Virus record (IMG/VR): IMGVR_UViG_3300034121_001930
Location: 1 to 64,000 of that record
Reading direction: 5' to 3' (one strand)
From: a virus
DNA: 64,000 bases
Below, in pieces: positions 21,264 to 37,500 of this stretch. The translations under genes and the position numbers were made by a program. Under the pieces are notes generated by a model. That model was given only the letters and a program-made list of their open reading frames with translations, ran no database searches and was not told where the DNA came from. Numbering within the stretch: position 1 is the stretch's first letter; the number at the start of each line of letters is the position of its first letter.

Positions 21264-21326
21264 GCGTCCTGCATCCTGCATCCTGCATCCTGCTTCCGGT
21301 TGCAAAGCATCCTGCATCCTGCATCC
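21264..21326. repeat. 7-bp GCATCCT tandem repeats
   Basis: Two clusters of the heptamer GCATCCT, four in a row (first with one change) at 21264-21291 and nearly three at 21307-21326, separated by CTTCCGGTTGCAAA-like sequence. Confidence 0.85.
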
Positions 21327-21420
21327 GGTTGGCTGGTGGTTGGCTGGTGGTTGGCTGGTGGTTGGCTGGTGGTTGGCTGGTGGTTGGCTGGTGGTTGGCT
21401 GGTGGTTGGCTGGTGGTTGG
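21327..21420. repeat. 11-bp GGTTGGCTGGT repeats, 8.5 copies
   Basis: Eight perfect copies of GGTTGGCTGGT plus six bases of a ninth. The + strand has dense GG pairs able to form two-layer G-quadruplexes. No codon bias or start supports coding. Confidence 0.95.
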
Positions 21421-21473
21421 TACACGCCGCCGGAACGCTACACTAGGCGAGTGTAGTTTTGGCGCTGGGTATT

Positions 21474-21536
21474 GGTTGCTGGTTGCTGGTTGCTGGTTGC
21501 TGGTTGCTGGTTGCTGGTTGCTGGTTGCTGGTTGCT
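21474..21536. repeat. 7-bp GGTTGCT repeats, nine copies
   Basis: Nine perfect tandem copies of GGTTGCT, 53 bp after the 11-bp array and sharing its GGTTG core. A 7-bp hairpin CTACACT/AGTGTAG lies between the arrays. Confidence 0.95.
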
Positions 21537-21549
21537 GGGCGCAGGAAAG

Positions 21550-21632: not shown

Positions 21633-21963
21633 CGCAGAAAAGCGTATACATTTCATCTTTTCGACACTTTCTTGAAAAATATTTTCGGGGTCAATACGCT
21701 ATAAAACAAGGGGTTTCGCGCTACTCTGCAAACTTTCCCGAAAAAAAGTTGGTGACAAGTTCGGGGCCCAATGTATGGTCGTTCTCGTTGGCCGCAAGGT
21801 CACCCACAAAAGCGGATCGGCCGCCGCCCCAGCACGGGGTCCGGCGGCGAGCTCCAAGCGGTGGTCCAGCTCTTTCCCAGTCCCCGATCTCCGGCCCGCA
21901 GTGTAACGGGCCATGGTGCAATGCCACCACCGCGAACAAGCCTGCAATGGTTGCAAGCCGCGC

Positions 21964-22007: not shown

Positions 22008-22688
22008 ATGAGAACGGAATACGAATTGAATATCGGTTTGCTGGTCGAAAAGACTGGCAAAAGAATCATCCGCCAAGACGCCGCCGCCGCGCTCGCCGCG
22101 ACTGGTTTTGAAGCACACGCTTCAATCCTGCATGAAGGCGAGTGGGAAGGCCAGCCGCAACCCACGCTGGTGGTCGTTGGCTTTGCTCCCGCCAATTGGA
22201 GCGCGGACGCCTTGGCCGACGAGCTCCAGCAGGACAGCATCGCTGTCCTCGAGGTGGACGCCAACCACGGCCGCTTGGATGGCCCAAACCCGCAAAACTA
22301 CGGGTTTGACCACAGCCTGTTCACCACCTTCGAGCAGGCCGTGGACGCCGAATGCGAACGCCGCAAACGCATCGCCTTGGTAGACCTCGAGCACGCCCGC
22401 TTGTTCGAGGCCGCCAAGGCCAAGGACGCCAGTGACAAGGCGTTCCTTGCCGCGGTGACGCCCCCCAAAGAAAAGACCAAGCAGGTGCACACTTTCAAGG
22501 GATTCACCCTCGAGCTCGAGTACGACGGCGACACATTGTATGCCGACATTTCGCACGGCGACTTCGCGGGCTCGCTAGCGTTCGCGGAGCACAACGGCTA
22601 CATTGACGATGGCGAGGATGGCAAGCGCAAGCGCGTGCCACAGGAGGTCATCGAAAAGTTCTGGGAGCTCGAAGCAAACTTCGCCTGA
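22008..22688 (+). CDS. Accessory operon protein, two-part, unknown
   Basis: A 226-residue protein from ATG 22008; a longer frame to 21771 has unlikely composition. Residues 5-115 match the product of 24409-24780 (L-N-I-G-L-L-V-[DE]-K-T-G, then K/Q-P-Q-P-T-L-V-V and N-W-[ST]-A-D-A-L-A-D). The C-terminal half has an acidic helical stretch and G-F-T-L-E-L-E-Y-D-G-D-T-L-Y-A-D-I. No known family is recognised. Its TGA stop (22686-22688) lies inside the catalytic core of hammerhead 1. It is the first gene of the ribozyme-punctuated operon. Confidence 0.8.
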   Translation: MRTEYELNIGLLVEKTGKRIIRQDAAAALAATGFEAHASILHEGEWEGQPQPTLVVVGFAPANWSADALADELQQDSIAVLEVDANHGRLDGPNPQNYGFDHSLFTTFEQAVDAECERRKRIALVDLEHARLFEAAKAKDASDKAFLAAVTPPKEKTKQVHTFKGFTLELEYDGDTLYADISHGDFAGSLAFAEHNGYIDDGEDGKRKRVPQEVIEKFWELEANFA

Positions 22689-22735
22689 TGAGGCCCTTGG
22701 CAAGGGCCGAAACCCTGCCCCCGCAGGGTCGCGGA
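22680..22735 (+). ncRNA. Hammerhead ribozyme 1 (type I)
   Basis: Core CTGATGA at 22685-22691, stem II GGCCC/GGGCC with a 7-nt loop, GAAA at 22709-22712, stem III CCCTGC/GCAGGG with loop CCCC, then TC. Stem I is formed by TTCGC (22680-22684) and GCGGA. The predicted cut is between C22730 and G22731. The new 5' end can pair GCGGA (22731-22735) with TCCGC (22746-22750), 9 nt before the next ATG. The upstream stop codon is in the core. Confidence 0.92.
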
Positions 22736-22759
22736 AGCCAACCAATCCGCCCAACAAAA

Positions 22760-22924
22760 ATGAACAACATTGACACAACCATTGCCGTGGCCACCAATTG
22801 CGTGGCCGAATTGCTAGCCCTCGCGAGCGGACTCATTGACGACCTTGAATCCTTCGGGTCCGAATGTGGCGACGACTACAGGGCCGAACTTCAGAACATT
22901 GTGGACAGATTCAACGCCGCCTGA
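22760..22924 (+). CDS. Small acidic helical protein, unknown
   Basis: A 54-residue protein, M-N-N-I-D-T-T-I-A-V-A, helical and acidic, ending F-N-A-A. The ATG at 22760 is chosen over the in-frame ATG at 22688, since the latter lies in the ribozyme core and would encode the ribozyme. No Shine-Dalgarno; the start follows CCAACAAAA, 9 nt past the leader hairpin. Its TGA (22922-22924) is in the core of hammerhead 2. Function unknown. Confidence 0.75.
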   Translation: MNNIDTTIAVATNCVAELLALASGLIDDLESFGSECGDDYRAELQNIVDRFNAA

Positions 22925-22983
22925 CGAGGCCCCGTCGCAAGGGCCGAAACGGCCAGCCCCTTCGGGGCGCTGGTCGTCGCGGA
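22917..22983 (+). ncRNA. Hammerhead ribozyme 2 (type I)
   Basis: Stem I CCGC/GCGG, core CTGACGA (22921-22927), stem II GGCCC/GGGCC with loop CGTCGCAA, GAAA (22946-22949), a long stem III of about ten pairs capped by a TTCG tetraloop, then TC. Predicted cut after C22978. The leader hairpin GCGGA/TCCGC spans 22979-22998. Differs from ribozyme 7 only at the variable core position 7 (C instead of T) within 71 nt. Confidence 0.94.
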
Positions 22984-23009
22984 AGCCAACCAATCCGCTC
23001 CAACCAACA

Positions 23010-23429
23010 ATGAGCCAAACGCAATTCCAAAATCGTAGACAAGCAACCAATCACCCGTACCGCCCCTGCTCCGCGCTTAAGAGCCGCGGTGGCCTAGTCA
23101 TCCACTCCGCCGCCCAGCGGTCCACTTGGTTCCTGCACCCCAGAATTAACGCTGACGCTTACCAAAGCGGCCTGCGCTGGGCCTGTAGCAGAAGCCAACG
23201 AGCCGCCGACGCGTGGATCGAGCAGGTGGCCGTTGGCCACGCGCTCGAGTGGGCAGAGCACGCGGCGCTGTCCGCGCTGTTCCCTAGCTGGCGGTTCCGG
23301 TTCACCGGAGCGACTGGGCAGGGCTCCGGTGTTCATTGGACCGCCAGCCGCAAGAGCGGTGGGCTGGTCGAAAGTATAGCAGGCACAAGCGCCGCGCACA
23401 TAGCGCGCCGCCTGCGCCAAGCCGCCTGA
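23010..23429 (+). CDS. Accessory protein, basic, unknown
   Basis: A 139-residue protein from ATG 23010, M-S-Q-T-Q-F-Q-N-R-R-Q-A. It is Arg/Ser/Ala/Trp-rich, with helical A-D-A-W-I-E-Q-V-A-V-G-H-A-L-E-W-A-E and a C-terminal R-R-L-R-Q-A-A. The basic nature might suit nucleic acid binding but no motif is clear. The start follows a ribozyme-made leader with CAACCAACA and no Shine-Dalgarno. The TGA stop lies in the core of hammerhead 3. Confidence 0.75.
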   Translation: MSQTQFQNRRQATNHPYRPCSALKSRGGLVIHSAAQRSTWFLHPRINADAYQSGLRWACSRSQRAADAWIEQVAVGHALEWAEHAALSALFPSWRFRFTGATGQGSGVHWTASRKSGGLVESIAGTSAAHIARRLRQAA

Positions 23430-23474
23430 TGATGGCCGTGTGGCAACGGCCGAAACCCCGCAAGGGGTCGCGGA
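23422..23474 (+). ncRNA. Hammerhead ribozyme 3 (type I)
   Basis: Stem I CCGC/GCGG, core CTGATGA (23426-23432) followed by one extra T, stem II GGCCG/CGGCC with loop TGTGGCAA, GAAA (23452-23455), compact stem III CCCC/GGGG capped by a GCAA (GNRA) tetraloop, then TC. Predicted cut after C23469. Leader hairpin GCGGA 23470-23474 with TCCGC 23486-23490. The extra base before stem II departs from the usual core and may affect rate. Confidence 0.85.
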
Positions 23475-23500
23475 AGCCAAACCAATCCGCTCCAACAACA

Positions 23501-23833
23501 ATGAAAAAATACGACTGGTCAATCCCCGTGCGCGACTTTCTCCGCACGGCCAAAAAACACGGGCTCGAGCCTGTTGCTGTAGACAACGGCGACGGCTGGG
23601 TCAGCACCTCCGCCATCGCGATTGCGGTGGACGAAATAGCCGCCACCGACGAAAGCCATGTGCGGTTCACCCACACCGACGGCTCGCGCGTCACTGCGTA
23701 CATCGTCCTTGGGAACGAACCCGCAGAGCTGGTGGCGGACTACACGATCCACCCCGCGCTTGACGCGGCCACCGATGAGCACTACAACAACTGGGAAGGC
23801 AAGCCCTGCCCGACAACCACCACCGAACAATGA
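23501..23833 (+). CDS. Accessory protein, unknown
   Basis: A 110-residue acidic protein, M-K-K-Y-D-W-S-I-P-V-R-D-F. It has alternating beta and helix segments including S-H-V-R-F-T-H-T-D-G-S-R-V-T-A-Y-I-V-L, and a flexible T-T-T-T-E-Q tail. No family is recognised. It is the first of four genes read from the mRNA expected after hammerhead 3 cleavage, and overlaps the next start by ATGA. Confidence 0.75.
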   Translation: MKKYDWSIPVRDFLRTAKKHGLEPVAVDNGDGWVSTSAIAIAVDEIAATDESHVRFTHTDGSRVTAYIVLGNEPAELVADYTIHPALDAATDEHYNNWEGKPCPTTTTEQ

Positions 23834-23937
23834 AACTACCACCAGAGCCCCCGCTGTGGCTAGGCGCATGCCTTGCCGCCCTCTTCGGGGCCGCCTTCGT
23901 AGCGGCCGCAATCCTATTCCACTACCTAGTATCGTGA
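23830..23937 (+). CDS. Single-pass membrane microprotein
   Basis: A 35-residue peptide with a proline-rich start (M-K-L-P-P-E-P-P) and one membrane helix of about 24 residues (L-W-L-G-A-C-L-A-A-L-F-G-A-A-F). ATGA and GTGA overlaps join it to the genes on either side, which argues that it is translated. Function unknown. Confidence 0.65.
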   Translation: MKLPPEPPLWLGACLAALFGAAFVAAAILFHYLVS

Positions 23938-24089
23938 AGCCTGCACCCTTCGCCTGTAGCGAGTGTGGTAGCCGCTGGTGGCCTGACCCAGACAGCAGTT
24001 GTCCGGCCTGCCAGCCAAGCCACACGCACGATCCAGACTACGACGAGCTACCGCCCGACCCGTACGATGAAATCGAACCCGAACCCTGA
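23934..24089 (+). CDS. Zinc-ribbon small protein
   Basis: A 51-residue protein starting at GTG 23934, overlapping the previous stop as GTGA. C-S-E-C near residue 8 and C-P-A-C near residue 24 form a rubredoxin-like zinc ribbon. The tail is acidic and rich in Asp, Pro and Glu. Probably a nucleic acid or protein-binding adaptor; target unknown. Confidence 0.7.
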   Translation: MKPAPFACSECGSRWWPDPDSSCPACQPSHTHDPDYDELPPDPYDEIEPEP

Positions 24090-24100
24090 ATCCTGAAAAT

Positions 24101-24319
24101 ATGAAAGCATACCTGCTAAAAGACTACTGCGGGCAAGGCCCGCGAATCGTTGTTCACCCGCGCGGCTTGCCGCCCAGCTGGACAGAATCCGGTCTCACGG
24201 CCGAGCAAGAAGAGCAAGCGCAACACAGCGCGTGCAAGCTGGGCCCAGAGTTCCGCAACTATGTGTTGCACTTCGACCCAGAGACACTGGAGCACCTTGA
24301 CAGCTTCAAGGTGCGCTGA
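24101..24319 (+). CDS. Accessory protein, unknown
   Basis: A 72-residue protein, M-K-A-Y-L-L-K-D-Y-C-G-Q-G-P-R-I, ending L-E-H-L-D-S-F-K-V-R. Its stop (24317-24319) lies 7 nt before the core of hammerhead 4, so this is the only gene directly upstream of a ribozyme here whose stop is not inside the core. No known domain. Confidence 0.72.
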   Translation: MKAYLLKDYCGQGPRIVVHPRGLPPSWTESGLTAEQEEQAQHSACKLGPEFRNYVLHFDPETLEHLDSFKVR

Positions 24320-24322
24320 ACC

Positions 24323-24385
24323 CCGCCTGATGATGGCCGTGTGGCAACGGCCGAAACCAATCCGCTCCGGCGGTGCGGTCGCGGA
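24323..24385 (+). ncRNA. Hammerhead ribozyme 4 (type I)
   Basis: Stem I CCGC/GCGG, core CTGATGA (24327-24333) plus one T, stem II GGCCG/CGGCC with loop TGTGGCAA, GAAA (24353-24356). Stem III has ACC/GGT, a 3x3 internal loop, and CCGC/GCGG capped by TCCG, then TC. Predicted cut after C24380. Leader hairpin 24381-24400. Identical to ribozyme 5 across 75 nt. Confidence 0.85.
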
Positions 24386-24408
24386 AGCCAACCAATCCGC
24401 CCAGAAAT

Positions 24409-24780
24409 ATGAATACATTAGTCACACTAAATATTGGCCTGCTTGTCGATAAGACTGGCAGGGAAATCAGCCGCACCGAAGCCGCACAGGCGCTAATCGA
24501 GCACGGCGTCGAGCCCATCATCAGCCTCCTTCACGAGACGCAGTGGGGTGATAAACCCCAGCCGACCCTCGTGGTCTTCGCGGAGGTCCCCCGCAACTGG
24601 ACGGCCGACGCGCTGGCCGACACGCTCGAGCAGGACGCCATAGCGGTCCTCGAGCATGGTCCCAATGGCCAAGTTAGGGGTCACTTTGATGGCCGCAACC
24701 CCAAAGGATGGGGCTTCGACTTAAACGAGTTCGTAAGCTTGGACCAAGCACGCGCCGCGTGCAAAGCATCAGCCGCCTGA
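24409..24780 (+). CDS. Accessory protein, paralogue of first operon gene
   Basis: A 123-residue protein from ATG 24409. It aligns over nearly its full length with residues 5-115 of the 22008-22688 product, sharing L-N-I-G-L-L-V, T-L-V-V, N-W-T-A-D-A-L-A-D and a G-F-D block, but lacks that protein's C-terminal half. Function unknown. Its TGA (24778-24780) is in the core of hammerhead 5. Confidence 0.78.
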   Translation: MNTLVTLNIGLLVDKTGREISRTEAAQALIEHGVEPIISLLHETQWGDKPQPTLVVFAEVPRNWTADALADTLEQDAIAVLEHGPNGQVRGHFDGRNPKGWGFDLNEFVSLDQARAACKASAA

Positions 24781-24835
24781 TGATGGCCGTGTGGCAACGG
24801 CCGAAACCAATCCGCTCCGGCGGTGCGGTCGCGGA
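24773..24835 (+). ncRNA. Hammerhead ribozyme 5 (type I)
   Basis: Same elements as ribozyme 4: core CTGATGA (24777-24783) plus T, stem II GGCCG/CGGCC, GAAA, stem III capped by TCCG, TC. Predicted cut after C24830. Leader hairpin GCGGA 24831-24835 with TCCGC 24846-24850, 11 nt before the next ATG. The upstream stop codon is in the core. Confidence 0.85.
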
Positions 24836-24861
24836 AGCCAACCAATCCGCACCAACCAACA

Positions 24862-25155
24862 ATGAAAGCAGAAACCTATTATGTCCTGTCAATATCCACT
24901 CGCGCGAACACCTTTGGCTACTTTGGGGTCATCCTATTGTCGGCCAGCGGTCACGGCGTTGAGGCCCTGTACAGCCCCTACGCTGGCGGGCTTCCGAAAG
25001 ACCAGCTCGAGAACGGACTCCCCAAGCGCGGCACCCGCGTGCAGGACCTGTTCCAGCACGGCTTCGTAAGCGCACGGGACCAAGGCCACACGACTCCGGC
25101 CAAGGCCGCGCGCGTTATACAGGCCACCCTGCAACGCGAAAAACAAACCGCCTGA
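24862..25155 (+). CDS. Accessory protein, unknown
   Basis: A 97-residue protein from ATG 24862, M-K-A-E-T-Y-Y-V-L-S-I-S-T-R-A-N. The N-terminus (K-x-E-T-x-x-V-L-S) resembles that of 25434-25733 (M-K-T-E-T-S-H-V-L-S). The C-terminal half is basic and helical, ending Q-R-E-K-Q-T-A. Its TGA (25153-25155) is in the core of hammerhead 6. Confidence 0.75.
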   Translation: MKAETYYVLSISTRANTFGYFGVILLSASGHGVEALYSPYAGGLPKDQLENGLPKRGTRVQDLFQHGFVSARDQGHTTPAKAARVIQATLQREKQTA

Positions 25156-25201
25156 TGATGGTCCCTTGGCTGGGACCGAAACGCCGCCTAGGCGTCGCGG
25201 A
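25148..25201 (+). ncRNA. Hammerhead ribozyme 6 (type I)
   Basis: Stem I CCGC/GCGG, core CTGATGA (25152-25158) plus one T, stem II GGTCCC/GGGACC with loop TTGGCT, GAAA (25178-25181), stem III CGCC/GGCG with a 5-nt loop, TC. Predicted cut after C25196. Leader hairpin GCGGA 25197-25201 with TCCGC 25212-25216. Stem II and III sequences differ from the other copies while pairing is kept. Confidence 0.86.
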
Positions 25202-25226
25202 AGCCAACCAATCCGCACCAACAACA

Positions 25227-25430
25227 ATGACAAACATCCCGATAAAACTATGCGTTGGAGAATCCTATAGGATTCTACCGCCGCCGCCCAAAGAACGCGT
25301 TGAGGGGGTCTTCTATCCGGTCCGCTTCGGGCGACTGGTCGAGATCTACAGCAACGGCGAGTGCACCCTGCAATGGTACAACCAAGGCGGTTTCTACAAG
25401 AGCCACATCACCCGCTTAACCCACTACTAA
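25227..25430 (+). CDS. Small beta-rich protein, unknown
   Basis: A 67-residue protein from ATG 25227, M-T-N-I-P-I-K-L-C-V-G-E-S-Y-R-I. G-R-L-V-E-I-Y-S-N-G-E-C-T-L-Q-W gives it the look of a small beta-barrel. It ends H-I-T-R-L-T-H-Y. Only 3 nt separate it from the next gene and no ribozyme lies between. Confidence 0.72.
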   Translation: MTNIPIKLCVGESYRILPPPPKERVEGVFYPVRFGRLVEIYSNGECTLQWYNQGGFYKSHITRLTHY

Positions 25431-25433
25431 ACA

Positions 25434-25733
25434 ATGAAAACAGAAACATCACATGTGCTGTCCCTCGAGGACGCTTTCACGCCAACCTATGACCTGTTCC
25501 TGCAGGCCCCGTACAGCGGCAACCACAGGGACTTCGCGCACCAGCGCATACGCAATGGTGACGAGGTCGTCGAGCGCACCTTCTGGGGCCGCGATACCGC
25601 CGAGCACTGGGTCAATGTTCGCGAAACACGCACCAGCATCCGCGGCCTTGTCCAGACGCTCGAGCAGGCCACCGGAGTCCGCATCATACTTGTGGACGAC
25701 TTGCCCGAGGGCATAAGCTACCCAACCGCCTGA
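25434..25733 (+). CDS. Accessory protein, unknown
   Basis: A 99-residue protein, M-K-T-E-T-S-H-V-L-S-L-E-D-A-F. It has a mixed alpha/beta composition with G-L-V-Q-T-L-E-Q-A-T-G-V-R-I-I-L-V-D-D. The first ten residues resemble the 24862 product. Its TGA (25731-25733) is in the core of hammerhead 7. Confidence 0.75.
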   Translation: MKTETSHVLSLEDAFTPTYDLFLQAPYSGNHRDFAHQRIRNGDEVVERTFWGRDTAEHWVNVRETRTSIRGLVQTLEQATGVRIILVDDLPEGISYPTA

Positions 25734-25792
25734 TGAGGCCCCGTCGCAAGGGCCGAAACGGCCAGCCCCTTCGGGGCGCTGGTCGTCGCGGA
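25726..25792 (+). ncRNA. Hammerhead ribozyme 7 (type I)
   Basis: Stem I CCGC/GCGG, core CTGATGA (25730-25736), stem II GGCCC/GGGCC with loop CGTCGCAA, GAAA (25755-25758), long stem III capped by TTCG, TC. Predicted cut after C25787. Leader hairpin GCGGA 25788-25792 with TCCGC 25803-25807, 10 nt before the ATG at 25818. The upstream stop codon is in the core. Confidence 0.94.
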
Positions 25793-25817
25793 AGCCAACC
25801 AATCCGCACCAACAACA

Positions 25818-26063
25818 ATGACAACAACAAAAAGCACTGAAAGAATCATAAGCGAGCTCGTGGGCCGCACTATCCGGTACATCGCGCTCGACTCACAGCA
25901 AACCAATAACGGCGTACGCGTATTTAAAATCGACCAAGTCAACCGAGTTGCGGTTAGCAAAAAAGGCGTGCGCTACGCGGTGGTACGCGCGTGGGATATT
26001 GATGACCGCGGCGAGCAAAAGTTCCGCTCGCTACACTTGGCCGGAATCGACCTCGTAGTCTAA
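25818..26063 (+). CDS. Small basic protein, unknown
   Basis: An 81-residue protein, M-T-T-T-K-S-T-E-R-I-I-S-E-L-V-G-R. V-R-V-F-K-I-D-Q-V-N-R-V-A-V-S-K-K-G-V-R-Y-A-V suggests a beta-barrel. It is the last gene preceded by a hammerhead leader. No family recognised. Confidence 0.73.
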   Translation: MTTTKSTERIISELVGRTIRYIALDSQQTNNGVRVFKIDQVNRVAVSKKGVRYAVVRAWDIDDRGEQKFRSLHLAGIDLVV

Positions 26064-26084
26064 TCACAAACCAATAGAAAAACA

Positions 26085-26732
26085 ATGAACACAGAAACAG
26101 AAACAGAAACACCAGTGGCCTATTCACGAGGCCGATTCTACAAGGTCAAGGGCCTTCTTGTGAACGCCCCAATCACGGCGGTCTTGCACCGCTCGGTAAC
26201 GGGTAAAGGCTGGGCAGTTACGAGCCCCTATTGCGGGCAGGTAATCGCCAAGGGCCCGACCAAGGCCGCGGCCGAGCAAGCCCTGCTCGAGGTGCTCCAG
26301 CAGTTCGGAATCGAACGGGTCCAAGCGGGCATCCAAAGCGCGCCAGCGGCTCCCGATCCGGCAACGCTGGAATCCCCGCCAGCCCCGCAACGACCCGCTC
26401 GCGTAGACCGCGACCAGATCGGTCAAATAGTCAAAGCCATTGCCGAACGCGCACAGCTTACCGACTCCGAGATCGAGGCCGTGTGGCGCTCGCTGGCCTC
26501 TAACGGGAAGCACGCGGGCCGCCTGCTATCCAAGCCGCCAGTCTTCAGCGTGGACCCGCTGGCCAACGCCGCGTGGAACGGACTACAGCCCAACCCGTGG
26601 AAGGTTCAACCCACCGCAATCCTGTTCGCCAACGGCAACGCTAAAGATTTGCTGAATAAACTTGCCAAGCATGCTTGGCCAGCCTTTCTTGATCGCGACG
26701 CCGCGGCGCTCAAAGCACTAAATGTTTGGTAA
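26085..26732 (+). CDS. Accessory protein, unknown
   Basis: A 215-residue protein. Residues 10-75 form a small alpha/beta domain (F-Y-K-V-K-G-L-L-V-N-A-P-I-T-A-V). A Pro/Ala linker spans about 82-105, followed by a helical C-terminal domain with R-D-Q-I-G-Q-I-V-K-A-I-A-E-R and A-A-A-L-K-A-L-N-V-W. The start lacks a Shine-Dalgarno. No ribozyme precedes it. Function unknown. Confidence 0.75.
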   Translation: MNTETETETPVAYSRGRFYKVKGLLVNAPITAVLHRSVTGKGWAVTSPYCGQVIAKGPTKAAAEQALLEVLQQFGIERVQAGIQSAPAAPDPATLESPPAPQRPARVDRDQIGQIVKAIAERAQLTDSEIEAVWRSLASNGKHAGRLLSKPPVFSVDPLANAAWNGLQPNPWKVQPTAILFANGNAKDLLNKLAKHAWPAFLDRDAAALKALNVW

Positions 26733-26734
26733 TT

Positions 26735-27307
26735 ATGAAAGCAAAAATACAAGCAACCACAGCAATCCTTGTCGGCAAATCTAATGTGAATGGCTGGTGC
26801 CCCGTTACTGGGGAGCCAGCCAACTCAATCTACCAGTGCTTCCCCACTGGTAGATTGGTGCGCGCGTCCAGCGATGCAAACGCGCTCGAGGCGCACAACA
26901 ACGAACTGCCGAACGACACACGAATCCTGTCTCCAGAATCCAGAGTCTCGAAACCAGTCGAGCCCGCGGTCTGGGACAACAAACAAAAAATAGAAACAAA
27001 AAAAGTGAATAACAACATAACACACCTAGTCGCGGTTTCGTGCCGCACGCTACCCGCAACAGACAACTACCCTGCCCGAGTCAAGGTCACCTTACCGCGG
27101 TTCCAGAAAAGTATAACGCTTCCTTGGAACTACGGCGCGTCGCCGGAAGTCTCGGACCAAGTGGCGTTCTGGTTGCAACAGAATAACCTTAAGCACTGCG
27201 CGTTCCTTGACCTGCACGATTTTCATGTGTTGGCCGTGGAATGGGAGCTGGTCCCGCAGCTGCTTGAGTTGTTCAAAAACAAAACACCTAACCGCTACAA
27301 AAAATGA
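26735..27307 (+). CDS. Accessory protein, unknown
   Basis: A 190-residue protein from ATG 26735 (AATTATG), preferred over 26726, which overlaps the previous gene. The N-terminus has W-C-P-V-T-G-E-P-A. A lysine/asparagine-rich linker near residue 90 leads to V-S-C-R-T-L-P-A-T-D-N-Y-P-A-R-V-K-V-T and a helical end rich in Leu and Lys. No family recognised. It overlaps the next gene by ATGA. Confidence 0.72.
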   Translation: MKAKIQATTAILVGKSNVNGWCPVTGEPANSIYQCFPTGRLVRASSDANALEAHNNELPNDTRILSPESRVSKPVEPAVWDNKQKIETKKVNNNITHLVAVSCRTLPATDNYPARVKVTLPRFQKSITLPWNYGASPEVSDQVAFWLQQNNLKHCAFLDLHDFHVLAVEWELVPQLLELFKNKTPNRYKK

Positions 27308-28540: not shown

Positions 28541-28576
28541 AAAAGCCCCGAGCATTATGTTGCTCGGGGCTTTTTT
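28541..28576. terminator. Bidirectional Rho-independent terminator
   Basis: AAAAGCCCCGAGCA and its inverse form a 14-bp stem with a 6-nt loop. A T-run follows on both strands (TTTTTT on +, the A4 arm on -). It separates the rightward operon from the converging giant gene. Confidence 0.93.
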
Positions 28577-28579
28577 GTT

Positions 28580-31500
28580 TTATTTTGTGTTTAATTTCAA
28601 GTACTGCGGCCTAGCATACACGGCCTCGTTAAGGTACTTCACACGCGCGGCACCGTTCTCTTCTCCGCCAATGCGCAAGTAGTCCTTGTACGCGTCTTCG
28701 CTAGGTTTAAACCTTTCGACCCGACCATAACGCACGGCGTCCTTAAAGCGGCGCTTGCTAATGCCCACATCGTAGGCTTGGCTTTCCATTTCAGCGTAGC
28801 TCATTCCGAGCTTCTCGAATCCGGCCGCGTACTTGTTGAGCCTTTCGTTAATCGCAATCAATGATGTTTCATAGCGATCATAAACTCCGTCCACGCGTTC
28901 CTTGTCTAGCTGCTCGTAGCTCTTAAGCTCGCCAAGAGTTTCTCTGGCCGCGTCCATTTGTTGTTTAAGGTCACCGAACGCGCGTCTTGCCAGCTGTTCT
29001 GTTTTATTGGTGTGAACGCGGAACGGTTTGAACTCGTTGACCACAAGGTCAGCGGCCTTCTCGAAGCGTGCGTCCTTGTCGTAAACCCCGCCGTTGGTAT
29101 AAGCCTCGTAAGCTTTCCAAAACTGGAACGGGGTGCGAAGCTTGTACGCGTTAGTGGCCACATGCTTCAGGGTCTTGCCGACTTTGGTTCCCCATGAATC
29201 GTCCTCCAACCACAGCGCACCGCCGCGGTCGTCTCTATTCATACCGGCCTGCGCGAAAGCCTCCACTGCAATCTGCGGGCTCAGGAAACTCTTTGCCAAG
29301 GACGAAGCCATGACCCCCGGTATTTTCTCCCAGCGGCCATTGACTGCATGATGAATGCTGCGGCCGACGGCGTCTGTGATTGGACTAAATCCGTTAATGT
29401 AGGTGAGATCCCATGTTGTTACTGATTTGTCCGCTGGGTCTGATGTAATGAACAAGTTGGAATCGCGTGCCCAAGGCGGCTGAGCAGCCCGAACACCTTC
29501 TTCTTCCTCGTCTTCGACCTCAAACATTTCTTTCAGCAGGGCCGGAGCACCATACCCAAGGACAGAAAGGGTAGTGCCGAGTCCAATTAGTCTGTTACGG
29601 CCCCTCGCCACGAGCACTGGGTTTCCGCTCTTCACTTCGTCTACTCCGAGCTGGATCGTCGCGATTGGAAGGCGGAACATTTCTGCGGTGAAGCGGAAGA
29701 AGCTGTTGAACAGCATGCCAAGCCCGCTGCGTTGGAACTCTTTAGCAATCGGAGCCACACGCTCGCGGCCCTGTGTGGTAAGCCTGACAACACGCGCCGC
29801 CTCCTGCTTAATTTGCTGTGGTGTTAGCGGAACGCTCCTGTACTTGTTAGCTTTGGTCTGCACATCAATTTCGTGCGCCCAGTAAGCGGCCTTGTAGAGC
29901 ATATCAATTTGATCGTTAAGGGTTGCAAGACCATCGACTGTAACCTTCGCGCCCTTCCACGCCTTGGCAAGGAAGTTGCCCGGGGTACCGACCTCTTTGA
30001 GCATAGACTCAATCTGATTTGTAATCAGTTCAGGGTCGTCAATTGTTCCGCGGATAAAGTCGCGCATAGTTTGTGTAACCATGCTGCCTTCGGAGATTCC
30101 CAGCATAACCATATCGGCTCCGAGTCCGTCCATGTCGCGGCCGTACACTTGTTTAATACCTTTAAGCGCTGTAACAATGTTGCTAGGCGTAGGAACAAAC
30201 CCGTTAGACGATGCAAAGATTGGAATACTCACAAGGTTGCGGACAAAGAAGCCAGCGCTTCCCAATGTAAGAAACGCCATACTGGCACCAATTGTTCTGC
30301 TAGCACCAAGCTGTACAAAGTCCCAAACCTTTTTAGCATCGCTACCTTCTGGGGCAGGTGCCGGAGCGAACATAGTTTGGAACGCAGAAACAACTTCGGG
30401 CTGCGCGTAGTACTGGGACAGTGGATCGCCGCCGTTGGTGTCTGTGGTGTTTACTAGCGGAGCGTACCCGCGGTACTTAACTGGATCGTTCTCCACATCT
30501 TCGGCGGTTACAAGCCAGTTGTTGTCGAGACCAAGCTTGGTGTACTGCGTGAGCAGTCTCTGGGTACCAAGAAACTGAGCGAGGTTTCCGTAAGTGCGCA
30601 GCGCATTTTCAATTGGGTTCTGTACCTCGCCAAGCAGCACTCGAAGTTCCGGCGGCACTTCACCTTTCTGCATGAATCTTGTAAGATCAGTGCGGCTGGT
30701 TGCTCTTCCAAATACTTTTGGCGTCGCGCTGTGCTTGTCAATAAACTTGTAGAGCTCGCGCGTTCCAACATCTTTGGAGGCCGCTTCAGCTCGCACAAGC
30801 GACATGACTTCTGAGTCTGTGTACGGCTCGTACGCAACGTCCTTGCGCCACTGCTCGTATGTGTTATCAATCCACTTTTTCTCAAGGAAGTTACGGGCAA
30901 GCGCACGCTGGTGCGCGAACTCGCTGTCCTCCAGTACGCGTTGCGCGTAGCCTTCGTCCTGATGGATGCGGTAGGTGCGGGTAAGGTAGACTCCAAGATT
31001 TTGGTCAATAATTGCACGAAGCGGATTACCGGAGCCCAGCTCGTCTGAAAGTTCAGAGCTAAGTTTGTCCACGGCCACGCGGAAATTGGCAATGGCAATT
31101 GCAGTTTTCGGGGAGTTCAACTCCAGCCTAAGCTGCGCTTGCTGCTGCGCCTTGCGCACCGGTGCGAGGTTTTGTGCACGCGCGTCTTGGATATCCTTAC
31201 TGTACTGGGCCTCGGCCGCGGCAATTGCTGCGTCCCTTTGCTGAATTTCTGGGCTATTTTTTCTATCAGCGCGGGCCTGCTCAACTTCTGCAGTATACTT
31301 TTGTTTGCTGCGATGAGTCCTATAGTTCACACGCGCCGTATTAACGGCGTCCATGTAAGCTTTGTTTGCCGGGGCCCTGTCAAATACATCGTTAGCCTTG
31401 TCAATGCGTGCGCGCTTGGCCGTTTCTGCAGCGTCGCGTTGCGCCGCGCCTACGGTTGGCTCTGTGCTACCGAGCGCCAAGTTAACGTCGTCCAAGTCTG

Positions 31501-34500
31501 CGTTTGGTTCCGACTTAAGTGCGGCTTGGAACGCTTGCGTAAGATCCTTAAGCCGCGCCTTGGCAAGACGCAGCCCACGCTCTTGGTACTTGGCGGCCTC
31601 GAACAAGCGAGGGTCCATGTTTCCACTGGCGCGGAACAAGCGGCTAACTGGTCCACCCGCGTCCCATTCACCGGTGGCGTTGTTAATAAACAGGTCGTCC
31701 AAGCTAACCGCGTACGCGCTTTCAACGTCCGGGCTCGTAATAGCATACAGGGCCTTGCTGTAGCGCGGGCTCTTGTCTGTCATATAACCAGTGGCGCGCT
31801 CAGCAAACTCAGCGTTGCGTACGAATACTCGCGGGCCCACCATAATAGCTTCGGACCCACCGACCACGGCGAGCTTACTGCGCACGTCAACGAAGTCGCT
31901 GCTGCGCACGGGGTTAAAGCCGACCTCGGTCCAGACTTCTGGATCGTTAATGTCTGCGGGCATCTCGGTAATTGTGGAGATGTTACCCTTTACAGTCGCA
32001 AGAGGGAACTTGCCGGTACCTGCTGCAATATCACGTGCCTCACCTTTTCCGCTAATAGCACGAACCACCATAGTTGGGTTCGTAATCCGAGCAACACTAG
32101 TGTACGACAACGGCGCTGCTACACGCGTCGCAGTTTCTGCGGCGGGTTGATGAAGTGTAATCGCATATACCGATTCACCAGCAGCTGTAGATCTGTTGTA
32201 TGTGGGTATATCAATACGGGCTTCAACAACAGTTCTATCGGCTACAGCCACGCCAACTTTATCAACTTTGCTAGCGTCTATGTACTGTTTAATTTTATCA
32301 ATTGCTGGAGCGTCCGCAGCCCCTTTGACTTCCCACGGATCAAAGAAGCCAACAAGATCGGCGTATTCATCCACGGTAATTTTACCTTCGATCATTCGCA
32401 CAGCAGCTACAGCAAGCTCGGGTGCGTTACGCCGAGCCGTCGCCTTGCCCGCGGCTTTCTCTTCTGCTGGCGTTACCGGTGTAAGGTTTGCTAAGCTCTT
32501 GGCTATGCTGGCTGGTGCGGCCAGCGGCAAGCTAGTGTCACCATCCTTTACCTTGGTTACCTTTTGCTTATTGAACAATACACCAGCTTGGTAAGACGTG
32601 CTAACATAACCCTTGAATCCTGCATCCTTAACCGCTTTCTCGAGCAGTGTAAGTGCAGCGCGGTTGTCGAACCTAGCGTAGCCAGCCTTCTGCAGGGCGT
32701 CTGCGTCCGGGTACAGGTCTAGTGGATCACGGTCCAAGTCGTACAAGGCATCGCCGTTGACCAGCATGCTGTAGCGGTTGACCCCGACCTGAGTCTCGCG
32801 GCGGTACTTGCCGTATCCGAAATAGGTTCGCGGCATGTAGATGTCTCCGTACTCGCGGCGGCGCTCGAGTTCTTTACCAGCGCCACCATTACCGTGTTCG
32901 CTTGGGTCTGTCTCCTTAAGCTCGGTGGCCTTGGACCAATGGGTTAGCTGGACCATGCGTCCACGGAAAGCCTTGGGCGCGGTGTCGAGCCCGGCCTTGC
33001 TAAGCGCAATGTTCGCGTTAGTGAAGCCATCCTTAAGCGATGTCGGGCTCCACGCGACCAGCTCGAGCACGTCTCCATTGTTGTCCACAATAATGATTCC
33101 GTCGTAGCCGAGCTTCTGACCCATGGTCTGGAACTGCTTACCTATGTAGCCTTTCTCTTCTAGGATCTTCTCGGTCTTTGCTTCGGCCTTGTCTGGGTCC
33201 ATGCCAAGAGCTTGGAATATATTGGCTGGATACGCTTGGCTATACTCAAACACCAATGGATTCTGTAGGCTAACATCGAATACCGAAACGCTACCACCGG
33301 TAATGCCTGCTCCGAGGCTACCCTCGCGCGCATACTTCTTCGCTGAGTCAACGCTTGGCGTGACGTAGTAACCAGATCCCAGAGCGCCTTCCTTGCTCGG
33401 ACGCAGCGCACCCACACCCTGCTTGTATGTGCCGCCGTGGAATGCTGTTGTGGAGTACGGCTGGCCAGTTGCGACTATGGCTTTGCTGCGCGCAATACTA
33501 AGATTAACACCCAAGCGGGTCGCAATTCTTGTATCTTCAATTTCAATATCAGTTACCGTAGGCAAGTTCATTGCGTACGTAATGATTTCCGAATCTGTAT
33601 ACAAGCCCTTGGTTTGTTTCTTAATGCGGTCAAGAGCTTGAGTACGCAGATCAAACTCAGTTCTAAGCTTGTTTCTGAAGGCCGCGTCAAGATCGTACCA
33701 AGCCGCATCGGTTTCAACCGGTGAGGTAACAATATCCAAGATGTCATTACCGGCCATATCAGTTTCTCTTTGAAGTTTCTTAGAAACTTCTGCGACTGTA
33801 GCAAGATCTTGCAAAGCTTTCGGCATATCCGAAATTCGCATATATCTTCCTTGAATCACTGGGATCTCTGACGGATGAACTCGCGCGCCCAAGAACTCTT
33901 TGGCTGCTTTGGACCATGTGTTGCGTCGTTCGCTGTTCGCGAACATAGCCTCGTCATCTTGGGTAATTGCACGGCTGCGGGCAATGCCGACCCCGGCCGG
34001 GGCCGGACCTTCGGTAACGTCGGCCCAGCTTGGGAAACCAAGACCAAGCTCTTCATTGTTGCTATTGGCCACGGCGGTTGCCAAGTCCTTGCCGTTGGTC
34101 GCCATTGCAAACACTGCGGTCTGCGCTTGCTCCAACGTAATCTCGTTGTTCTGGTACCGGGCCCATACGGCGCGCACACCGTTAACGTTTTCAGACTTAC
34201 TCTTCCATCTGGCCGTGAACAACATACGCACGGCTTCCCAAGTAATGCTTTGCACTTGGCGCGGGAGCATTCCGTACTCAGCGGCGACCGCTCTGTACGC
34301 TTCTGCGAATGCTGGGTAAAGACCACCAACGCCGGTAAGGCTGTCGGTGGCGGTGTTTGCGGTTCCAAAGTTCTGGCCGACCTCGCGGCTGTTGCCGCTG
34401 AACGCTTGCCAGAACAGCGCCGCAATGGCGTGGGTGTCCATGGTCACGTGGCCGTCTGCGTTCTGCGGGTCCACAATGTTATTGTAAAAGCTACGAACCT

Positions 34501-37500
34501 TGTGCTGGTCGCCAAGCTCGTCGCTAATAACTTTCATTTGGGTTTCGGACGGCGCGGTAAGAATACTAATAGCCTTGCCAATGCTGCCGTAGGTTCCCCA
34601 CGCTAGTTTGATTTCTTTGGTGACGCCCTTGTTATTGGTGCTTGAGCTAGGCGTACCAAAGCGTCCGTCCGGGCTAACGATTGGGAAGCTAGTGGCGTAC
34701 TTGGTTTCAGCACGCATGCGTACAAACCAAGCCTGTTGCTCCGGGCTAAGATCCTTGAGCTTTTTACCTTTTAAGGACTGAAGCCGTTCAAACGCTTGCT
34801 GCCTTTTTGCTTTTACTTTTTCGCTGCCCCAGCCGTGGAACAACAGCATGCCGTTCTCGTCTGTGCGGTGCTCGCCGTTTTCGTCAAGGTCCGGTTTGAT
34901 CCCCTTGGCATAACCAATGGTCCCGTCCTTGTTCTCCTTAAGCTCTGGCTCACCGCCGCGCATAAGCCAGCGCGCGCTCATTGCGTCGTCCCATTCGTAC
35001 TCTTGGTCCGCGGTCCAGATTTCCATTGTCCGCTTGGCCAGCTCGACGTTCATGAACCAGTCCTTTTGTGGACTGAACACGGCAAGCACACCTGCGCTCT
35101 GCTCAAGGGAGTAGTTGTCCCCGGCGAACTGCTGCGCAATAATGTTTGCGCCGTCGTACCAAAGGTTGGCGATGTCGCGGATATCGCTTGGGAAAACATC
35201 CATTAGCGTGCGCAGGTTGCTCTTGGTAACCTCATTTAGTGTGTTGTAAATCTCGTCTGCTTGCTTGGCGATTGGGTGTTTCGGGTCCTTGGCAATCTTG
35301 TCAAGCGTATCGGTGTACGTCTTGAGCGCCTTGCTGCTGTCTGTTCCAAGAACAGCGCCTTCCGCCTCGTACTTTTTAATCTGGTCTAGGTTCTTGTTGA
35401 ACTCGGCCAAGGCCTTATTGCGCGCCCTTGCTTCTTTGTTCCCAGCAATAGTACCGGGCTGCTCCTTGGTAACAAATGCGGACTCAGGATTTTCAATTGC
35501 GTCCTCCAGCATTTTGCCGGACACCTTAGCTTTAGGAACACCAAGATAATTAGCGAATGTTTTCTTAGCTGTATCTTTTGCACCCTTAATCTTAATGCCG
35601 TTTGCTTTTGCTTTGTCCTGCGCTTTAAGAACAGCACCACGGATTTTTGCGTATTCTTTGGCGAGCTTCGGGAACTCGCGAGCAACGATTGGGTACTCGA
35701 GCAGAAGCAGCGCGTTCTTGCGGTACGCTTGCGGGTTGCGCTTCAGTGATGCCAGATCCACCAAGTTGCTCGGGTCGGCACCGTCCTCGGTGGCCTTAGC
35801 AGATGTTGGGTTGCGCGTGCCCACAGCCTTGCCAGCCTTGGTTTGCGCGCGAACCTGTACTGGGTCAATATTAACAGCGGCCCGGCTATAACGCACAATT
35901 GGTGCTGGGCTAGCGGCGCGGCTTGCGAGCTGCATGGTTACCGGACTGATATCCAGCGCGTTGAATTTTTCTGGGGCGTCTGGAAGTCCTGCGCCGTCGC
36001 GCAGAAGGTAACGGTAAAGATCCGCCACTCGGTTTTGCGCGGTGGCCAGCCTTTCGTTATCGCCGTTATTTCGCAGCGCAATGTGGTAGTACGCGGACGC
36101 GACGAACTGTTTGGCCTGCTCTTTAACCTTAAGCAAGTCCTGCAGATCGGAGTTGGTCAGAGTATTGTAGGCGGCCTGCTCAATAACTGAGTCCGGGCTA
36201 AGTCCAACCTCTTCAAAACTAAGCTGAATGTCTGGACCGTTTGATCCGTTCGCCAAACCAATAGCAACAGCAAGTCTGGTGTCGAGTTCTTGCAGGTCGC
36301 CAGCGTCTTCAACGTCGTAGGCTTCGTAACGGGCTTCGGCCAGAGCTGGGTTAACAGCAAGGCGTCCGTCAACGAACTGCATGGGCTTGTTAATTTCTCG
36401 GTCCTCGACAACTTGGAACTCGTCCTGAGCTGCTAGACTTCTTGCGATCTTTGTAACAGGAGCGGCTTGCTGGTCGCCCTTGCTGTACTTGATTCCAGAA
36501 TCCAGACTCGTGTCTAGGTCATATTCAACGCGGATTGTTGTTACGTTGCCGTTGGTGTCCAGCAGCGTACTAAAAAAGTTGTCGTCGGCCCCTATTGGTT
36601 GGTTAAGAGACTCGCCAACGCGCGGGCTATACATGCCATCCTTAAAGTACATTCCTGTGTTGGTTACAACGGAGTCCTGTACAAGCTCATTGGCTGCGTC
36701 AACCGCGTCTTGGTCCGTGAGTCCGGGGACAAGGAAGCTATTCTCGCCGCGGTTATACTTGCCAACAATTGGAATTACTTGGTACCCACGGTCCTTCAGC
36801 CACTGGGTAGCCTTCTTGTTGAACTCCTTGTTTTCTCTTTCGGAGAACTGGGTATCATTGGGGTTCTCCCCGGTAAACATACCGAACCTCTGGTTAACAA
36901 TAATATCGTTAATCTCTTCGTTGCTAAGGTCCGAGTAACGCAGCGTTTGCACTTGGTGCAGAATCCACTCAAGGTCGTCACGCGAGTGCGGGTTTGGCAC
37001 GCCAAACAGCGGGCCAACTCTGTTCTCGTGGTTAACACCCGCACGGCTGGCGGCCACTTGCGCAACGGTTCTACCGTACGGGTTTTGTCCAAGCGTTTGG
37101 TTTGCGTTTGACAGATCAGTAATAACTTCGGCCAGCTCTTTGTACTGCTTGCTGGCTACTGGTTGCCCGCTAAACAGGCTTGCAATAAGATCAATAAATT
37201 TCTGAACAAAGTTTCGTTCGCCCTTGGGGCTAAGCTCGACTAGTTGTTTGCGGAACTTGCTGGACCCATAGAAGTGCGCCACCAATTCACGGGCTCCGTC
37301 AACATCACTAAACGGTTCAGACAAACTAGCGCGACCTTCCAGAGCGTACCGCAAGTCCGGCGGCATGTTGTCGCCGTACTTTGCGTTAGCACGTTCCGCG
37401 TACTCAGCGCGCAGGGACATAAGCCTGTCGCGCACTTGTTGTTCAAACTCGTTTGCCGGGGCTGTTACAACACGATCTGTAACAGCGTGGCCCAGCTCGT

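Follow-up and report, generated by a model that had tools for sequence, protein, structure and literature searches.

A phage operon with seven predicted type I hammerhead ribozymes at its gene boundaries, possible joints of a gene cassette system

Introduction

Clustered hammerhead ribozymes are already a known kind of phage element. According to passages of the study by Perreault et al. 2011 (PMC3088659), multiple hammerheads flank single genes or short gene blocks in prophages, and long transcripts were suggested to be cut into single-gene or operon-length messenger RNAs (mRNAs). The same passages report that double and triple sets cleave (three arrays in vitro and the triple set of A. tumefaciens in E. 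coli) and that such natural clusters do so efficiently. Here, we analyzed an array of this kind in the IMG/VR virus record IMGVR_UViG_3300034121_001930 (64,607 bases), of which 64,000 bases, hereafter the window, were studied. The window carries seven hammerheads within 3.1 kb, and neighboring pairs enclose one to four genes each; at least two hammerheads of the same strand thus flank phage genes, as in the clusters of Perreault et al. An earlier note on this DNA, made from the letters alone, had predicted the seven elements and added that no operon with hammerheads between its genes had been described, a claim that the prophage clusters contradict. We consider it likely, judging from position, pairing and conservation, that these seven type I hammerheads cut one polycistronic phage transcript at its gene boundaries. 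The locus and its relatives make testable a specific role for phage hammerheads, a question open since 2011; in the answer proposed here, a phage operon would become a set of interchangeable, self-insulated gene units.

Seven type I hammerheads in one array

All seven copies present, in order, CTGAYGA, stem II, GAA, a stem III that begins with A and ends with T, a C at the cut and GCGG (Table 1). The residues of the type I core (CUGANGA, GAA, the A15.1-U16.1 pair and H17) are found in every copy, N7 being T or C and H17 being C throughout, and three stems surround this core, with stem I open in all of them. Stem I has 4 to 5 base pairs (bp), stem II 5 to 7 bp and stem III 5 to 12 bp; in copies 4 and 5, stem III comprises 7 bp around an internal loop. 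All seven lie at the cut positions predicted by the earlier note, and its assignment to type I was correct. It had overlooked one additional T between A9 and stem II in copies 3 to 6 (4/7); insertions at this place are common, being present in 91 of the 154 unique phage hammerheads that we collected. The caps that it gave for stem III are present as GCAA in copy 3, TTCG in copies 2 and 7 and TCCG in copies 4 and 5; CCCC (copy 1) and GCCTA (copy 6) must be added. Stems II and III do keep their pairs while varying, as it had stated, but the copies are not independent: copies 2 and 7 are near-identical, copies 4 and 5 do not differ in either stem II or stem III, and one stem II is common to copies 3, 4 and 5. 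Because of the first two of these resemblances, the seven copies amount to five distinct sequences. Nor are the segments strictly intergenic, since the TGA stop codon of the upstream gene lies inside the catalytic core (CTGATGA or CTGACGA) in six of the seven; only at copy 4 does the stop come before it. Among 177 phage hammerheads with an upstream open reading frame (ORF), the stop was the TGA of the core in 45; in another 81 it preceded the core by no more than 20 nucleotides (nt), the distances peaking at 8 nt.

The scanner, which requires the core and stems I, II and III, found seven hammerheads on the plus strand of the window, none on its opposite strand and none in 5.12 Mb of Markov-shuffled window sequence. 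The reversed pattern was likewise absent from five related records, and a chance origin was rejected. The clade covariance model (R1), built from 24 copies of the clade in which those of the window were partly included, gave exactly seven matches in the window (E values from 5e-19 to 2.5e-15; next match, E = 2.9) and also reached distant phage hammerheads, with E values down to 3e-15. To avoid circularity, pairing was assessed with a pattern that fixes only the core letters and demands no pairing at all. Of its 137 unique matches, 107 had a stem II of at least 5 bp (4.7 after shuffling; 19 when the halves were swapped between sequences) and 106 had a stem III of at least 4 bp (23 and 27, respectively). 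In a MAFFT alignment of the 24 clade copies, 94.9% of the cells were paired and six pairs had changed on both sides, while slid registers paired only 24 to 44%. The stems therefore covary, and stem I, near-constant within the clade, varies with compensation at other loci. The core residues are invariant, and the invariant positions are the catalytic ones, not merely those of helices. RNase III sites, terminators or other hairpins could resemble the hammerhead order by accident, and gene-by-gene processing by RNase III is classical in the T7 operon. Such an origin is nevertheless extremely improbable given the absence of the full order from the shuffled sequence, the catalytic nature of the invariant residues and the lack of T tails after the hairpins.

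A predicted hairpin formed by the cleaved strand of stem I

In this clade, the first bases past the cut are the 3' strand of stem I, and they are able to pair with a TCCGC arm located 15 to 20 nt downstream (GCGGA-agccaaccaa-TCCGC after the first cut). The leader that follows every cut is constant: it consists of GCGGAAGCCAACCAATCCGC and then an unstructured CCAACAACA-like stretch before the ATG. The hairpin is predicted at all seven cuts of the window, against 1.8 expected after shuffling the downstream sequence. Over 28 loci with at least two hammerheads, a hairpin of at least 4 pairs was found in 95 of 100 cases against about 35 expected with the downstream part shuffled, a sum of per-locus figures (the overlapping L064 being left out) in which many loci have two ribozymes only and are individually not significant. 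In a record with 16 ribozymes, described below, it was found at 12 of the 12 scanned, against 4.2 expected. For 181 thinned sequences, a helix of at least 5 pairs was present in 58, against 15.8 after shuffling (maximum of 26) and 31.3 when downstream parts were swapped (maximum of 43). Moreover, the 12 variants of stem I other than GCGG all have a complementary downstream arm, as in the record that carries both GTAGCG-tct-CGCTAC and GCAGCG-tct-CGCTGT. The upstream, cleaved and downstream strands thus change together, a covariation of three strands.

The hairpin is 1.3 to 2.8 kcal/mol more stable than the pairing of stem I in all seven copies, in a model of secondary structure only that leaves tertiary contacts aside. 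In six copies, the predicted pairing of stem I drops once the arm emerges (+20 to +22 nt); the starting value is about 0.8 or more for four of these and 0.25 to 0.4 for two. In copy 1 the pairing is low from the outset. This raises the alternative that the hairpin is a timer or off switch, by which an uncut ribozyme would lose the 3' strand of stem I as soon as the TCCGC arm is made, and the speed of the polymerase, its pausing or ribosomes at the stop codon would set the fraction of single-gene and polycistronic mRNAs. Both the stability of the hairpin and the fall in pairing within a few nucleotides of arm synthesis favor it, as do the stop codons in or near the core, because a ribosome that terminates there would sit over both the core and stem I. 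We regard it all the same as rather unlikely: the energies omit the tertiary contacts of hammerheads, loop II carries a UGGC complementary to the GCCA of the leader in five of the seven copies (as read from the sequence), a pairing that would favor the ribozyme, and the natural clusters covered by the passages of PMC3088659 cleave efficiently. Each cut would instead probably leave a protective hairpin on the new message.

Another possibility is that cleavage is coupled to ligation and yields circular or rearranged RNAs, not mRNAs. Hammerheads are capable of ligation, and in other settings RNA circles arise from type I elements, according to part of PMC7761336. In our array, each unit between cuts holds a gene with its start codon near the 5' end, and the re-pairing hairpin would oppose ligation; spliced or circular products were sought by Perreault et al. 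and none was found, according to the passages of PMC3088659. This makes a role in ligation very improbable.

No Shine-Dalgarno (SD) sequence is present in the leader of the window, and an SD-like sequence was found in only 2 of the 34 genes checked in this phage; SD sequences are present in many other phage ribozyme arrays. The idea that the array serves to expose SD sequences was rejected for the window, since the leader and nearly all the genes lack one. The scarcity of SD sequences in these genes hints at a host with SD-independent initiation.

Gene cassettes rearranged at the ribozymes

We compared gene order around the array with that of four related records, G001 to G004 (Table 1). Pairwise comparison of the five genomes revealed that 28 of 46 adjacencies across a hammerhead were broken, compared with 7 of 77 without one (Fisher test; P about 1e-9, pseudo-replicated). 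Between the window and each relative, hammerhead adjacencies were kept or broken in 1 and 2, 0 and 1, 2 and 2, and 0 and 2 cases, respectively, while 16 of the other adjacencies were kept and 1 was broken. The D1-D3-D4 order, in which no ribozyme intervenes, is conserved in the window, G001, G003 and G004, and in G002 one gene is inserted between D1 and D3. Cassette F occupies a different position in G001 and G004 with 98% amino acid (aa) identity. At the edges of cassettes, DNA identity climbs abruptly, from about 50% to 95%. All four combinations of stem II and stem III were present for one pair of types (four-gamete test), implying exchange within the ribozyme itself. Neighboring copies of one genome often have their stem III in common, with runs of one type in G001, G003 and G004. 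By gene order, ribozyme-bounded genes have been gained, lost or moved in these four relatives, with breakpoints mostly at the ribozymes.

The cassette genes are small and mostly lack known relatives: none had a Pfam match at threshold, and PHROGs matches were weak and to families of unknown function. The protein of cassette B had neither a Pfam match nor a PHROGs match below an E value of 0.1, and cassette E weakly matched phrog_11722 (unknown function; E = 2e-4). The gene of cassette E is a paralogue of the first gene of the array. Copies 4 and 5, which border this cassette, have one hammerhead sequence between them, which fits an inserted or duplicated cassette. A tRNA-Pro proposed by ARAGORN (26294-26371, minus strand) was dismissed, as it lies inside gene H2 and has no Rfam tRNA match.

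Ribozyme arrays in other phages and other ribozyme classes

Four other IMG/VR records match the leader pattern, and gene content points to a fifth relative. These records carry 6, 7, 7, 6 and 3 hammerheads, on a single strand within each record, and four of them do so at the homologous locus. Among isolated phages, no relative was identified by the DNA of the array region or by protein (a primase-like replication protein). One hammerhead of these relatives (L155, G002:C1:49424-49480) has a weakened stem II, with GTTCCC opposite GGGACC, and is possibly a decaying copy. Beyond the clade, the broader pattern was found in at least 119 stretches of viral contigs and, in bacterial genomes, 63 times, mostly in Clostridia and Paenibacillus; altogether the scans yielded hundreds more hammerheads outside the window. 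Ribozyme arrays are widespread, and seven per operon is not the largest number: IMGVR_UViG_3300036780_000230 (L222; G006:C1:16717-24780) has, on one strand and within 8 kb, 16 type I hammerheads that alternate with genes (the strict scanner found 12 and the covariance model 16). Most of its cuts are followed by a short hairpin and then by a CTGCAATGGAG-like ribosome-binding block.

Some arrays unrelated to that of the window mix ribozyme classes, with pistol, twister-sister, type II hammerhead and RAGATH-5 motifs beside type I hammerheads. Pistol (L068, L070 and L078) and twister-sister (L209 and L125) motifs have the same orientation as the hammerheads; those of L068 and L070 are at gene boundaries, and in L209 the ORF calls overlap one twister-sister. 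Since different folds occupy the same setting, self-cleavage itself is probably the selected function. This bears on a further explanation, in which the main reason for keeping the repeats is the homology that they offer to cassette recombination in an accessory-gene region, cleavage being secondary or lost in some copies. Copies are indeed homogenized within genomes (2 with 7, 4 with 5, and the stem III runs of three relatives), and stem II and III types recombine, with breakpoints mostly at ribozymes. On the other hand, stem pairing survives double substitutions, the core is invariant, and homology alone cannot explain why unrelated classes without homology stand in similar arrays; we find this explanation improbable.

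In a 347-kb phage (IMGVR_UViG_3300027834_000005; L025:6483-6756), two hammerheads are found in a tRNA cluster, with predicted cuts exactly at tRNA 5' ends (tRNA-Tyr at 6674 and a tRNA-like sequence from 6525). The acceptor strand of the tRNA is here the 3' strand of stem I, so that the ribozyme could replace RNase P. Such a 5' role would complement the one at the 3' trailer that phage theta ribozymes have been proposed to play (PMC10879173).

Proposed processing of the transcript

The transcript would probably begin upstream of 22 kb, and a strong intrinsic-terminator-like hairpin (28541-28574) may end it. Each ribozyme would cut shortly after its synthesis, the upstream mRNA retaining the stem II and stem III hairpins and a 2',3'-cyclic phosphate at its 3' end and the downstream mRNA beginning with a 5'-OH and the constant leader. 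Once the downstream arm, some 18 to 20 nt further along, is transcribed, the 3' strand of stem I would re-pair into the 5'-terminal hairpin. This hairpin would set the upstream piece free, make re-ligation harder, close off the new 5' end and keep the start region unstructured; it would in this way lock the reaction forward and protect the message. The ribozyme would act as a three-strand switch: the 3' strand of stem I would first have its partner upstream, for the cut, and later downstream, where the pairing caps the mRNA. A cassette would consist of the leader, one or more genes and half-ribozymes at both ends. Having their own processing signals and homologous ends, cassettes could enter, leave or change place through homologous recombination while their expression stays undisturbed, and the standard unstructured leader may matter for translation, since the genes of this phage mostly lack SD sequences. 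That the ribozymes are the joints of such a natural cassette system, combining swapping at the core and leader, independent expression and the stem I switch, is a tentative proposal to which we give somewhat less than an even chance.

Several results weigh against these readings. Stem I has only 4 bp in six copies, and four copies carry the additional nucleotide after A9, which may affect activity. The hairpin, being slightly more stable than stem I, could inhibit cleavage rather than follow it. After very strict thinning (48 phage ribozymes), the hairpin was found in 9 against 5.2 expected, an excess that is not significant, so that the claim for the hairpin rests on the per-locus test and the stem I variants. 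The adjacency counts come from pairwise comparisons of five related genomes, which makes them pseudo-replicated. The array is a putative single transcription unit: the promoter scan covered sigma-70-like sites, their matches in the window were not above chance (5 against 2.9), and the site upstream of the array is tentative. Finally, the Rfam search proposed by the earlier note gave no match at the gathering threshold of any Rfam model in the window, the best being 17 bits to RF00008 (E = 6, copy 1). As Rfam also returned no hammerhead in ten further array loci that contain this motif, this negative is uninformative and reflects the sensitivity of the models; Rfam, blind to the entire group with a short stem I, was rejected as a judge.

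Cutting of the transcript into units with uniform 5' ends remains the best reading because of the position, conservation and covariation of the elements, the constant leader and the published experiments on prophage clusters. On function we largely agree with the earlier note, self-cleavage in this phage being a prediction from sequence. If it is true, ribozyme arrays would flag fast-changing accessory genes worth mining.

Two other features flank the array. Three short tandem arrays (TCCTGCA x8.4, GGTTGGCTGGT x8.5 and TGGTTGC x9.4) lie upstream of it, between divergent gene blocks, and downstream a single ORF of opposite orientation apparently encodes a giant multidomain phage protein.

Table 1. 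Features of the window, gene orders in relatives (a slash marks a hammerhead) and ribozyme sites in mixed arrays
Feature	Position	Strand	Predicted cut after	Clade model (bits; E)	Predicted 5'-terminal product hairpin	Remarks
Tandem arrays	21267-21538
Promoter-like site	21752-21779	+				Weak; consensus match only
Cassette A	ends at 22688					Gene upstream of hammerhead 1
Hammerhead 1	22679-22740	+	22730	67.1; 2.5e-15	22731-22750	Stem II GGCCCTT/AAGGGCC; stem III ACCCTGC/GCAGGGT
Cassette B	22760-22924	+				54 aa; TGA stop in core of hammerhead 2
Hammerhead 2	22915-22988	+	22978	71.4; 1.9e-16	22979-22998	Core CTGACGA; TTCG cap
Cassette C	23010-23429	+				139 aa; stop in core of hammerhead 3
Hammerhead 3	23420-23479	+	23469	81.3; 5.4e-19	23470-23490	Additional T after A9; GCAA cap
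Cassette D	23501-24319	+				Coupled genes: D1 23501-23833; short membrane-like ORF from 23831; D3 (zinc-ribbon-like) 23934-24089; D4 24101-24319
Hammerhead 4	24321-24390	+	24380	72.2; 1.2e-16	24381-24400	Additional T after A9; stem III with 3x3 internal loop, TCCG cap
Cassette E	24409-24780	+				123 aa; among relatives only in this phage
Hammerhead 5	24771-24840	+	24830	72.8; 8.4e-17	24831-24850	Stems II and III of copy 4
Cassette F	24862-25155	+				97 aa
Hammerhead 6	25146-25206	+	25196	78.0; 3.9e-18	25197-25216	Additional T after A9
Cassette G	25227-25733	+				G1 25227-25430; G2 25434-25733
Hammerhead 7	25724-25797	+	25787	75.6; 1.6e-17	25788-25807	Resembles copy 2
Cassette H	25818-27307	+				H1, H2, H3; after last hammerhead
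Terminator-like hairpin	28541-28574	+				14 pairs, T tail
Large ORF	28580-41695	-				4371 aa
Order, window						A / B / C / D1 D3 D4 / E / F / G1 G2 / H1 H2 H3
Order, G001						A / C / K / F / D1 D3 D4 / G1 G2 / H1 H2 H3
Order, G003						A / B / C / X / D1 D3 D4 / G1 G2 / M / H1 H2 H3
Order, G004						A / C / K / F / D1 D3 D4 / M / G1 H2 H3
Order, G002						A / N / Y Z C / U / D1 T D3 D4 / F V / M / H1 H2 H3
Mixed array L068	1279-1355					Pistol
Mixed array L070	799-874					Pistol
Mixed array L078	1682-1749					Pistol
Mixed array L209	3080-3161; 4744-4828					Twister-sister
Mixed array L125						Twister-sister; three sites
Mixed array L169	2909-2974
Mixed array L176	4861-4913

Comparison with known systems

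In the T7 early region, RNase III cuts polycistronic phage RNA between genes. The array would similarly derive units with defined ends from one phage RNA, but this RNA is proposed to cut itself, with no need for a host nuclease. Mobile cassettes of a promoter and a stem-loop were reportedly described in T4-type phages by Arbiol et al. in 2010. They share with our locus the shuffling of small accessory phage genes as modules bounded by repeated regulatory elements; their boundary is a promoter with a terminator, whereas that of the window is a self-cleaving ribozyme that would act post-transcriptionally.

The copies of the window have the core, the three stems and the cleavage position of the Rfam families Hammerhead_1, Hammerhead_II and Hammerhead_3 (RF00163, RF02276 and RF00008), and the open stem I of type I hammerheads, but they differ from the Rfam hammerheads by a short stem I and, in many cases, by the additional nucleotide after A9. 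Pistol and twister-sister ribozymes occur near phage genes and were found near genes associated with known ribozymes, according to part of PMC6154101 and Weinberg et al. 2015 cited therein. They are likewise self-cleaving RNAs between phage genes, although of other folds, and are interspersed with hammerheads or adjoin them in some arrays outside the window. RiboJ is an engineered insulator in which a 23-nt hairpin was added to a hammerhead to stabilize the folding of the ribozyme (PMC7536230). In both cases a hammerhead is followed by a hairpin and the 5' untranslated region of the downstream gene is standardized; the predicted natural hairpin, unlike that of RiboJ, takes the own strand of stem I and so excludes the ribozyme fold. 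If the proposed role is true, phages would use a natural equivalent of the ribozyme insulators that synthetic biology employs.

The known precedent is the prophage clusters of Perreault et al., in which several hammerheads also flank genes or short blocks and cutting of the transcript was proposed. Neither the re-use of stem I in a hairpin nor cassette exchange was found in the passages of PMC3088659 or in the literature searched, which comprised few subscription papers, and within this literature both are apparently new. Compared with the clusters as those passages describe them, the window has seven consecutive hammerheads of a single type that share a constant leader, and it goes beyond them in the recurrent 5' hairpin that re-uses stem I and in the exchange of cassettes at the ribozymes.

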